Below are positions 8,797-57,381 of a DNA stretch of 64,000 nucleotides, piece after piece (within the stretch, counting starts at the first letter, position 1; every line of letters begins with the position of its first letter). The position numbers and the translations under genes are program-made. This DNA is from an endosymbiont of unidentified scaly snail isolate Monju (GTDB lineage: Bacteria; Pseudomonadota; Gammaproteobacteria; Chromatiales; Chromatiaceae): positions 1,984,001-2,048,000 of the forward strand of contig NZ_AP012978.1 of NCBI RefSeq assembly GCF_000801295.1, in the 5' to 3' direction. Below the pieces are notes generated by a model. It was not told where the DNA came from and did no database searches. It saw nothing but the letters and a program-made list of their open reading frames with translations.

Positions 8797-8824
8797 TTCG
8801 CGGCGAGGACGCCGCTCCCACCTA
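8797..8824 (+). repeat. Half-unit REP
   Basis: One arm of the dispersed REP family, CTTCGCGGCGAGGACGCCGC followed by TCCCACC, without the facing second half. It lies between two converging genes. A short palindrome CCCTGACAGGG lies upstream at about 8710; the same 14-base context recurs near 57466. Confidence 0.6.
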
Positions 8825-16375: not shown

Positions 16376-16666
16376 ATGGCCAGTACGCCGGACGAACTCA
16401 CCATCAACTACAGCGAGGGCGGCATCGACCTCGTCAAGGAACTGGACAAGCGCGTACTCTCCAAGGGCGCCTGGACCACCATCCTTTTTCGCTACCAGGA
16501 ATGGGACAACGCCAAGCAGGCCTACGGAAAGGACAAATACTCCATCCGCCGTTACCAGAAACGCAACGGTGAATACCAGCAGAAGTCCAAGTTCAACATC
16601 TCCAGCCCCGACCAGGCGCGGCAACTGATCGAGGCCCTGCAGGAATGGGTGGAGGACGCTGGTTGA
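16376..16666 (+). CDS. Small conserved protein with PC4-like strand pattern, function unknown
   Basis: A 96-residue basic/acidic protein, MASTPDELTINYSEGGIDLV, then KELDKRVLSKGAWTTILFRY and YSIRRYQKRNGEYQQKSKFN, ending in a helix (QARQLIEALQEWVEDAG). The arrangement of a W-T-I-L-F-R-Y strand, a basic R-R-Y-Q-K-R strand and a terminal amphipathic helix is reminiscent of the ssDNA-binding PC4/YdbC fold, but I cannot assert homology. The codon pattern is good and the gene sits directly before a tandem REP array. Confidence 0.65.
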   Translation: MASTPDELTINYSEGGIDLVKELDKRVLSKGAWTTILFRYQEWDNAKQAYGKDKYSIRRYQKRNGEYQQKSKFNISSPDQARQLIEALQEWVEDAG

Positions 16667-16672
16667 ATCGGT

Positions 16673-16917
16673 GTTCGCGACGGGGACGTCGCTCCTACCC
16701 GTAGGAGGTCCATCCCCGGGCCGAACTGGTTCGCGACGGGGACGTCGCTCCTACCCGTAGGAGGTCCATCCCCGGGCCGAACTGGTTCGCGGCGGGGACG
16801 CCGCTCCTACCCGTAGGAGGTCCATCCCCGGGCCGAACTGGTTCGCGGCGGGGACGCCGCCCCTACCGTAGGAGGCCCGTCCTCGGGCCGAATGTTTGCG
16901 GTGGGGACGCCGCTTGT
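16673..16917 (+). repeat. Tandem array of a 56-bp composite REP unit, four copies plus a partial fifth
   Basis: Units begin at 16673, 16729, 16785 and 16841; the first three have an exact 56-bp period, the fourth is 53 bp, and a decayed partial unit starts at 16894. Each has a left palindromic half (GTTCGCGACGGGGACGTCGC), CTCCTACCCGTAGGAG at the centre, and a right half ending CCCCGGGCCGAACTG. The first two share GACGTCGC while the third and fourth have GGCGGGGACGCCGC, with compensatory changes that keep the stem. The array fills the space between converging genes and ends about 3 bp from the sbcB stop. There are no spacers, so it is not a CRISPR. Confidence 0.92.
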
Positions 16918-16919
16918 GT

Positions 16920-18362
16920 TCAATCCAGGCCGACCAGACCTGGCCATTCGAGCAACTCATCGACCACGCGGCGGCGGTCTTCGGCCAGCGAGGTGTCGAC
17001 CGCCAGGCGCGCCAGTTCACGGCGGTACTGTTCGAGGGTGATACTGGAGGGACCCTCGGGGTCGCGCACCCGCGCCCGACGCCATTCGTCCCAGCGCGCG
17101 CGCTCCTCGCGGTTCAGGGTCTCGGGCCAGTTGCGCGCACGGTAGCGGAACAGCAGCTCCTGATAGCGCGGATCATCGAAGCGCAGATCGAGACGACCCA
17201 GTTCCTCGGGCGGGGTCGCGCGCACCCGTTCGCAGCGACGCCGATCGGCCTCGCTGGGGAAACCGCCATACAGATCGAGATCAGGGTCGCGCGGCGGATA
17301 TTCCCGTTCGGCGAACACCTCGGCGAGCTTTTGCTGCACGGTCTCACGATGAGCGAGCAACTGGTCGCGGTGACGCTGTTCGGCGGCGGCATCCATCTGC
17401 CAGCGCTCGCGTGCGGCATCGGTCAGCGTGTTCATGGGCACCACCACCGGCGCCTTGTTGATGTGGACCTCTTTCAGCGCGATGCGCTCGACGCCCTCGG
17501 GCAAATCCTCGGCACGGGTGTAGAGACGCTCGCGCAGCGCCTCGGCGTCGAGCTCCAGCAACGGCGCGGGATCGACCCGCAGGTCATAAACGATGACGCT
17601 GTTGCGGTTGCGCGGGTGCCAGGCCAGCGGCAGCACCGCGGCGATACAGCCCAGGCGCGCAGGATACCGCGACGAGACGTGCAGCACCGGGCGGCCGGCG
17701 GCCGGTTCGAGCATGCCGGCGAGCGTCTGCTTGTCGCGGTGGTTGAAGACATAATCGAACAGGCGCGGCTGACGCTCGCGCACCAGGCGCGCCAGGGCGA
17801 TGGTGGCGCGCACATCGGCAAGCGCATCGTGCGCGCCCGTGTGGGCGATGTCGTTGGCCTCGGTGAGCTTCTCCAGGCGAAAGGTGGTCACCCCGGGTTC
17901 CTTCTCGGGCCATTCGATGCCCTCGGGACGCAGCGCATGGGTGAGACGCACCACGTCGATCAGGTCCCAGCGCGAATTGCCGTTCTTCCATTCGCGCTCG
18001 TAGGGATCGAAGAAATTGCGGTACAGGCCGTAGCGGGTGACCTCGTCGTCGAAGCGGATGGTGTTGTAGCCCAGCGAGCAGGTGCCCGGCTGCATCATCT
18101 CGGCATGGATGAAGCGGAAGAAATCGGCCTCGGGCGCGCCTTCGGCCAACGCGCGCCGCGGCGAGATGCCGGTGACCATGCAGGCGCCGGGCTGCGGCAG
18201 CATGTCGTCGGCCGGTCGCGCGTAGATCACCAGCGGCTCGCCGATGGGGTTGAAATCGAGATCGGTGCGCAGACCGGCGAACTGGGCCGCGCGGTCACGC
18301 GCGGGATCGGCGCCCCAGGTCTCGTAGTCGTGCCAGTAGAAGCTGGTGGTCTGGCGGCTCAT
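16920..18362 (-). CDS. sbcB: Exodeoxyribonuclease I
   Basis: A 3'-5' single-strand DNA exonuclease of the DEDDh group, used in recombination and mismatch repair. The 480 residues match the family (E. coli 475). The start ATG 18362 follows GGGGGAGG; the open frame extends upstream but with nonsense content. Motifs: FYWHDYETWGADPARDR (ExoI metal-binding Asp/Glu), LGYNTIRFDDEVTRYGLYRN, WDLIDVVRLTHALRPEGIEW, and HTGAHDALADVRATIALARL with the catalytic His/Asp pair, then the SH3-like and C-terminal helical regions. Its stop codon abuts the 56-bp repeat array. Probably monocistronic. Confidence 0.95.
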   Translation of the reverse strand: MSRQTTSFYWHDYETWGADPARDRAAQFAGLRTDLDFNPIGEPLVIYARPADDMLPQPGACMVTGISPRRALAEGAPEADFFRFIHAEMMQPGTCSLGYNTIRFDDEVTRYGLYRNFFDPYEREWKNGNSRWDLIDVVRLTHALRPEGIEWPEKEPGVTTFRLEKLTEANDIAHTGAHDALADVRATIALARLVRERQPRLFDYVFNHRDKQTLAGMLEPAAGRPVLHVSSRYPARLGCIAAVLPLAWHPRNRNSVIVYDLRVDPAPLLELDAEALRERLYTRAEDLPEGVERIALKEVHINKAPVVVPMNTLTDAARERWQMDAAAEQRHRDQLLAHRETVQQKLAEVFAEREYPPRDPDLDLYGGFPSEADRRRCERVRATPPEELGRLDLRFDDPRYQELLFRYRARNWPETLNREERARWDEWRRARVRDPEGPSSITLEQYRRELARLAVDTSLAEDRRRVVDELLEWPGLVGLD

Positions 18363-23580: not shown

Positions 23581-24411
23581 ATGAACATCACCCTGCTGAC
23601 CTATCCGGCCGCCGCCCTGTACCTGCTGACCGCCGTGCTGACCGCCGTGCTGACCGCCGTGCTGATCGCCGCGCGCCTGTTCGGCGGGCGCGACGCCCGT
23701 GATCGGCGCCCGCTGGTGCTGGGACTGGGGTTCATGGCACTGGCCCTGCACGGCGCCGTGCTCTACAGCGAGCTGGTGACCGAGGCCGGCATCAACCTCG
23801 GCTTCTTCAATGCCGCCTCGCTCACCGCCTGGATGATCGCCGCCCTGCTGCTGGTCTCGGCGCTGGGCAAACCAGTGGAGATGCTGGGACTCGCAGTATT
23901 CCCCCTGGCCGCGCTCACCATGCTGCTGGACCTGCACAATCCGGGACATCATCTCCTGGACAACAAGGCCGACTGGACCCTGGGGGTACACGTCACCGTC
24001 AGCATCCTCGCCTACGCCATGCTCACCCTGGCCACCATCCAGGCCCTGCTGCTGGCAGTCCAGGACAATCACCTGCGTTCGCATCATCCCGGCGGTTTCA
24101 TCCGTGCCCTGCCGCCCCTGCAGACCATGGAGGCCCTGCTGTTCGAGATGATCGGCCTGGGCTTCGTGCTGCTCAGCCTGTCGTTGCTCAGCGGCTTCTT
24201 CTACCTGGAAGACATGTTCGCCCAGCACGTGGCACACAAGACCCTGCTGTCACTGATCGCCTGGATGGTGTTCGGCGCATTGCTGTGGGGCCGTTATCGC
24301 TTCGGCTGGCGCGGCACCACCGCCATCCGCTGGACGCTGACCGGCTTCGTGGTGCTGATGCTGGCCTACTTCGGCAGCAAGGCCGTGCTCGAACTGGTGC
24401 TGCACCGATGA
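23581..24411 (+). CDS. ypjD: Inner-membrane CcsA-like protein YpjD
   Basis: A 276-residue protein with eight or so membrane helices and the cytochrome-c assembly (CcsA/CcmC) core. ATG 23581 is preferred over the longer frame because the first helix begins immediately. Visible are WTLGVHVTVSILAYAMLTLA, the His-containing GVHV and AQHVAHKTLLSLIAW (haem-ligand-type histidines), and LSLLSGFFYLEDMF. YpjD is conserved beside ffh; a cytochrome-c biogenesis role is inferred from the domain only. Residues LTAV repeat three times because of a 12-bp tandem repeat near the start. Confidence 0.9.
   Translation: MNITLLTYPAAALYLLTAVLTAVLTAVLIAARLFGGRDARDRRPLVLGLGFMALALHGAVLYSELVTEAGINLGFFNAASLTAWMIAALLLVSALGKPVEMLGLAVFPLAALTMLLDLHNPGHHLLDNKADWTLGVHVTVSILAYAMLTLATIQALLLAVQDNHLRSHHPGGFIRALPPLQTMEALLFEMIGLGFVLLSLSLLSGFFYLEDMFAQHVAHKTLLSLIAWMVFGALLWGRYRFGWRGTTAIRWTLTGFVVLMLAYFGSKAVLELVLHR
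23625..23672 (+). repeat. 12-bp tandem repeat inside ypjD
   Basis: GCTGACCGCCGT occurs three times in a row and a fourth copy differs at two positions. It encodes LTAV repeated within the first membrane helix. The unit is a multiple of three, so copy-number change would lengthen or shorten the helix without a frameshift. Confidence 0.8.
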
Positions 24412-29724: not shown

Positions 29725-29775
29725 GTTCGCGGCGAGGACGCCGCTCCTGCACGGGGATAGGTGCCTGTCCTCGAC
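29725..29775 (+). repeat. Composite REP with diverged right half
   Basis: The left half is intact (GTTCGCGGCGAGGACGCCGC, CTCCTGCACG); the right half has decayed to GATAGGTGCCTGTCCTCGAC. It lies between the divergent Nudix and ppx genes in a 251-bp intergenic region that otherwise shows no gene. Confidence 0.65.
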
Positions 29776-52101: not shown

Positions 52102-52442
52102 ACCCCCAAACCTGTGGATAACTCTGTGGAGGAATCTACGGGGACTTGTTGAACAACACAAGCAGGATCGAGCAAGACCGACACGCAAAAGAAAAAATTC
52201 CTTTTAACACCGTGTTTTATTGGTCTTTCAGGAGGCGAGACTTGCACAATTGGGGCTAACCGGCGCTGACGGGTGCCTCGATGTGTTGTGTATAAGTGGG
52301 AACGGCGTCCTTGCTGTGAAAGGTCCGGCCCGGGGACGGGCCTCCTGCAGCAGGCGCGGTGTCCCCGCCGCGAACCTTCAGGGACAGGATGGGCAGGCTG
52401 CGCCTTGCCCATCCTGCGATGCCGGAGTGTCGCGTCGGGAGA
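52102..52442. other. Intergenic 341 bp containing one composite REP
   Basis: The first 130 bp are relatively AT-rich and must contain the Sel1 gene's promoter; no clear -35/-10 pair was found. The remainder holds the composite REP at 52324-52376. No coding region is supported. Confidence 0.5.
52324..52376 (-). repeat. Composite REP, minus orientation
   Basis: TCCGGCCCGGGGACGGGCCT followed by CCTGCAGCAGGCGCGGTGTC and CCCGCCGCGAACC is the reverse orientation of the two-half element, with a slightly altered centre (CTGCAGCAG). Confidence 0.72.
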
Positions 52443-57327: not shown

Positions 57328-57381
57328 TTCGGCCCGAGGACGGGCCTCCTACGGATAGGAGCAGCATCCTCGCCGCGAATG
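57328..57381 (-). repeat. Composite REP, minus orientation
   Basis: TTCGGCCCGAGGACGGGCCT, CCTACGGATAGGAG and CAGCATCCTCGCCGCGAAT form the two-half element in reverse orientation. The middle matches the array units at 16673 except for small changes. It separates the converging srkA and fba transcripts. Confidence 0.78.

Follow-up and report, generated by a model that had tools for sequence, protein, structure and literature searches.

REP arrays and the run of REPs beside sbcB

Tandem arrays of repetitive extragenic palindromic (REP) sequences are described for Escherichia coli, as bacterial interspersed mosaic elements of type 2 (BIME-2), for Pseudomonas fluorescens SBW25 and for other bacteria in those parts of the literature on which we draw (PMC2817692, PMC3116915, PMC3733652, PMC8266576, PMC8450116, PMC9381778). 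According to the same parts, the TnpA-REP proteins of E. coli and Stenotrophomonas are HUH enzymes acting on single-stranded REP substrates, in which they cut CT sites next to the hairpin and require the GTAG head, and the E. coli gene for the REP-associated tyrosine transposase (RAYT), yafM, is also flanked by BIME-2. Here we analyze a window of 64,000 nucleotides (positions 1,984,001 to 2,048,000 of NZ_AP012978.1) from the endosymbiont of unidentified scaly snail isolate Monju, in which a run of REPs lies next to sbcB, the gene for exonuclease I (ExoI). We consider it highly probable that this run is a BIME-2-type array of the GTAG superfamily, which was seeded by REP mobility, amplified locally, and came to lie beside sbcB by chance.

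In common with the published E. coli BIME-2, the REPs alternate in orientation, the units are joined head to tail and arrays are found beside the RAYT gene, whereas the stem sequences and the 56-bp unit length are different, and the gyrase binding reported in the sources above concerns E. coli only. GTAG-1 type REPs (PMC3733652) and the Pseudomonas system of REP doublets forming hairpins (REPIN) with its RAYT are described there as sharing the features seen here of a GTRG head, a short GC-rich stem and a 3-base tail, as well as the occurrence in dimers and tandem clusters with a dedicated RAYT. Unlike in these systems, the stems here are of two alternating types (A and B), with facing GTAG heads mostly 1-7 nt apart and tails mostly 2-3 nt apart. 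We read the family as falling under GTAG-1, a placement made on the described features of that type. The ordered REPIN clusters of SBW25, of which 16 are published, are also comparable, although their units are described as longer than those of the present array.

The array, its transposase and the REP family

A period of 56 bp, with 4.4 copies and 93% matches, was found at window positions 16673-16914 with Tandem Repeats Finder (TRF), and REP scoring gave nine consecutive 25-bp GTAG-type REPs at 16674-16919 in the alternating order A-B-A-B-A-B-A-B-A; one candidate-scoring step took in 40 of the 150 candidates. Within a unit, a minus-strand A-type REP (GTAGGAGCGRCGTCCCCGYCGCGAA) precedes a plus-strand B-type REP (GTAGGAGGYCCRTCCYCGGGCCGAA), and successive units start 56, 56, 56 and then 53 bp apart, the partial fifth at 16894 (Table 1). 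Both methods confirm the head-to-tail array of composite REP units, with a constant period over three intervals and a partial, decayed fifth, which the earlier note had seen. The repeats show the short imperfect palindrome, the unpaired GTAG-like head and the many copies that define REPs, and their arrangement as several tandem units with REPs in alternating orientation is that of BIME-2.

A genome-wide pattern search allowing up to 3 mismatches found 202 A-type and 201 B-type REPs, and since the reversed-pattern control gave 0 matches in 2.6 Mb, chance is excluded as the source of these matches. With gaps of up to 130 bp (199 of 202 A positions used) there are 115 A-clusters, 64 with one A, 32 with two and 19 with three or more, and the largest, at 752898, holds seven A copies in a strict 56-bp period. 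Seven other clusters in the fetched stretches equal or surpass the nine-REP array (9, 9, 9, 9, 11, 13 and 15 REPs). It is clear that neither the statement that REP pairs normally occur singly nor the description of this array as unusual is borne out, the array being one of many REP runs in the genome and the 19 larger A-clusters having counterparts in the published arrays of E. coli, SBW25 and others.

The genome gave a single Y1_Tnp match, a RAYT of 148 aa (734756-735199), which scores 140.4 bits against NF047646 (REP-associated tyrosine transposase, cut-off 80) and has E. coli TnpA-REP 4er8 as its best solved relative. Its gene carries the same A and B REPs on both sides, the flanking arrangement characteristic of RAYT-REP systems, and by analogy with the enzymes described above it probably mobilizes the A and B REPs.

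Growth of the array in place

The statistics on arrays are drawn from 64 clusters in fetched stretches picked for holding several REPs; five or more REPs occur in 28 of them, a proportion that is not a genome-wide rate. The outside spacer was identical at a frequency of 0.51 within arrays and 0.078 between arrays, and the inside spacer at 0.515 and 0.08, so that spacer sharing was about six times more frequent within arrays, while the identity of A+B was 0.914 within and 0.871 between arrays. None of 1000 label shuffles reached the within-array value for any of these three measures. The long arrays each keep a period of their own (56, 59, 53-54 and 69). The far greater sharing of spacers within than between arrays suggests that each array grew where it lies. 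In the array beside sbcB, units 1-3 have the same B variant, GGTCCA, and the same spacers, CC and CTGG. As GGTCCA and CTGG each occur three times here and with none of the other fetched REPs, we take them as the mark of a local duplication.

In the scheme that we favor, REP units would have spread round the genome through the RAYT of the host, and an A-B unit adjoining an older REP at the 3' end of sbcB would then have multiplied in place by tandem duplication, through slippage or unequal recombination during replication. Such a duplication would account for a period that stays constant at 56 bp as well as for spacers in common. Alternatively, the array may have been built up unit by unit through repeated RAYT-directed insertion next to existing REPs, as REPs are clustered and published models propose that BIMEs are made by RAYTs. 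However, the sharing of spacers within arrays generally, together with the restriction of CTGG and GGTCCA to this one array, speaks against such a course of events, and we find it unlikely.

The array sits between the stop codons of two convergent genes (Table 1), one coding for 96 aa, for which Pfam and NCBIfam searches gave no match, and the other being sbcB, the neighbor named in the earlier note and confirmed by its PF08411 domain. The decayed REP of unit 5 abuts the sbcB stop codon at 16920-16922.

Table 1 Features of the REP array and its neighboring genes (positions in the window).
Feature	Position	Strand	REPs and spacers	Remarks
Unit 1	16673-16728		A REP 16674-16698 (-), B REP 16701-16725 (+); spacers CC + CTGG	
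Unit 2	16729-16784		A REP 16730-16754 (-), B REP 16757-16781 (+)	identical to unit 1
Unit 3	16785-16840		A REP 16786-16810 (-), B REP 16813-16837 (+)	
Unit 4	16841-16893		A REP 16842-16866 (-), B REP 16868-16892 (+)	1 mismatch in A REP
Unit 5	16895-16919	-	A-type REP alone	decayed, 6 mismatches
sbcB (exonuclease I)	16920-18362	-		convergent neighbor; PF08411 (E 1.1e-99), PF00929
96-aa gene	16376-16666	+		convergent neighbor; start codon inferred

REPs of this family, A alone or A+B, are also present elsewhere in the window, singly or paired, at 1028-1079, 8797-8821, 29726-29750, 52350-52374 and 57355-57379. At G000:1578195-1578630 eight B-type REPs of one orientation, 55 bp apart (30-nt gaps) and with a terminal single A REP, form an array that is head to tail without alternation of orientation. 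Between 1400000 and 1600000 of G000:C1, beyond a dif-like site at 1275637, 37 A REPs lie on the plus strand versus 4; a replication-strand bias of REP orientation had a p value of 0.009 by copies but 0.078 by clusters, and is not claimed.

A candidate class of special terminal REPs with an ATACAAG head was rejected, as the head proved at five fetched places, all outside this array, to be the right end of an insertion sequence of IS110 type. This element of about 1.2 kb, with PF01548 and PF02371 in two overlapping frames, is inserted in the head of A-type REPs in G000 near 753314 (L002), 1544364 (L010), 709538 (L012), 844971 (L154) and 2468423 (L165). The final 401 nt are identical across the five copies, and L010 has AG at both junctions, as in the published account of ISPpu9. 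TRF also found a 12-bp tandem repeat in 4 copies (TGCTGACCGCCG) at window positions 23624-23671.

Stem pairing, folding and possible function

The earlier note had taken the variation between units as compensatory and as a sign of selection on structure. Units 2 and 3 do differ solely at one pair of the A stem, an exactly paired change in which A-T of unit 2 stands against G-C of unit 3 (GCGACG/CGTCGC and GCGGCG/CGCCGC). In the B stem of units 1-3 (GGTCCA against CGGGCC), by contrast, neither the T.G wobble nor the A.C mismatch is compensated; unit 4 has the B stem GGCCCG/CGGGCC, a form common in the genome. The variable A-stem pair, 10-19, is dimorphic genome-wide (116 G-C, 22 A-T and 14 one-sided intermediates, n=154 copies), and this explains why units 2 and 3 differ in a paired manner; dimorphic REPs are already known from published REP work (Table 1 there). 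At this pair 138 copies are Watson-Crick paired versus 105 expected and a shuffle maximum of 118. The remaining five A-stem pairs do not exceed shuffles, and no clear excess is seen in the six B-stem pairs, the highest of them, pair 9-20, having 135, equal to its shuffle maximum. Compensatory selection across the array was therefore rejected, and selection on structure finds weak support in one of the six A-stem pairs. The array RNA folds better than shuffles (z -3.14) and whole single units only modestly so (z about -1.5 to -1.9); for the A stem by itself the energy is -7.5 to -8.8 kcal/mol, with z about -2.8. Structure is important to the REP family, the simplest reason being that a hairpin is required by the transposase, and the array itself shows no sign of selection of its own.

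Selection could nevertheless have kept the array as a working element, either a bidirectional 3'-end barrier in which RNA hairpins protect or terminate the convergent transcripts, or a gyrase-binding BIME. This would suit its place between convergent stop codons, the folding of the array RNA, one terminator-like site at 16898-16913 and the gyrase binding described for E. coli BIME-2. However, the array is absent from this place in 20 of 20 relatives, the B stems of units 1-3 are weakened, single units gain little over shuffles, and a count of one terminator-like site is close to the average of 0.5 in shuffles (standard deviation 0.8), besides which the tail of this site lacks a clean run of T; we consider a selected function improbable. 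By the same count an intrinsic terminator is unlikely, the one site being weak, and an RNA family was rejected as Rfam yielded sub-threshold microRNA matches only. The array probably has no function specific to it, though it may have side effects on the binding of gyrase or on the 3' ends of both convergent transcripts.

The REP stems may also be kept perfect without selection on function by hairpin-templated repair or conversion, as suggested by a difference between units 2 and 3 at the very stem pair that is dimorphic genome-wide. ExoI limits quasi-palindrome mutations. We give such correction only a slim chance.

Relatives and meaning of the array

The comparison set consists of relatives of other species, with a single strain of the host species. 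With up to 6 mismatches allowed, neither an A nor a B REP was found at the sbcB 3' ends of 20 relatives, nor was a tandem array (L050 had 51 nt downstream, and offsets for L050 and L051 were set by hand). The same array with the same copy number in all relatives, named in the earlier note as the sign of an ordinary fixed element, was thus not found, and the array is ordinary nonetheless. By eye, a single decayed REP with a shorter loop was seen at the same sbcB-adjacent place in the congener G007, and the congener G003 has an apparent B-head fragment at the sbcB 3' end. The decayed REP of G007 is at the place of unit 5, so that an older REP at the sbcB 3' end probably preceded the array, which would have grown on it.

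ExoI degrades single strands from 3' ends. A specific tie between the array and ExoI, at which the earlier note had hinted while judging it a probable coincidence, found no support and is very improbable. The last REP does abut the sbcB stop, and one other locus (L068) has A, B and A REPs just after sbcB. Of 80 named sbcB loci, however, 74 of which extend at least 300 nt downstream, L068 is the only one with A or B REPs in the next 600 nt, and its genome G028 holds 198 A copies, so that chance suffices for the adjacency. None of the 20 relatives has the array at the sbcB 3' end.

Copies of A and B number 32 and 33 in G003 and 10 and 9 in G007; five other congeners have 0-2, and G002 is the only congener with a RAYT above 50% identity. 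Within the genus these counts are compatible with a dependence of REP abundance on the cognate RAYT, but G028, a metagenome-assembled genome (MAG) of Sedimenticola sp. with no close RAYT match, tells against a close dependence. In G002 (G002:C9:18000-22000) two tandem RAYT genes, 52% identical to the host RAYT, are surrounded by arrays that have a period of 108 bp and consist of a different REP pair.

Some of these observations weigh against seeding by the RAYT followed by local duplication. The exactly paired change between units 2 and 3 is not predicted by plain duplication and random mutation. In G028, with its 198 A-type matches, the RAYT-like matches are all distant ones, at 26% and 32% identity, so that A-type REPs can be numerous in a genome in which no close RAYT was found, although the incompleteness of the MAG may be the reason. 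G003 and G007 keep tens of REP copies without a close RAYT, which would fit decay after loss of the RAYT.

The array is an ordinary example of an already known kind of bacterial repeat, and has little significance in itself beyond a possible use as a variable-number marker. What the analysis adds is a clear REP-RAYT population of about 400 REPs in a genome of 2.6 Mb. The host belongs to a gammaproteobacterial genus with relatives among Sedimenticola and Chromatiaceae MAGs, for which the literature searched yielded no description of such a population. Because its near relatives hold a sixth or fewer of the REP copies, this population makes a usable case for the growth and decay of REP populations.
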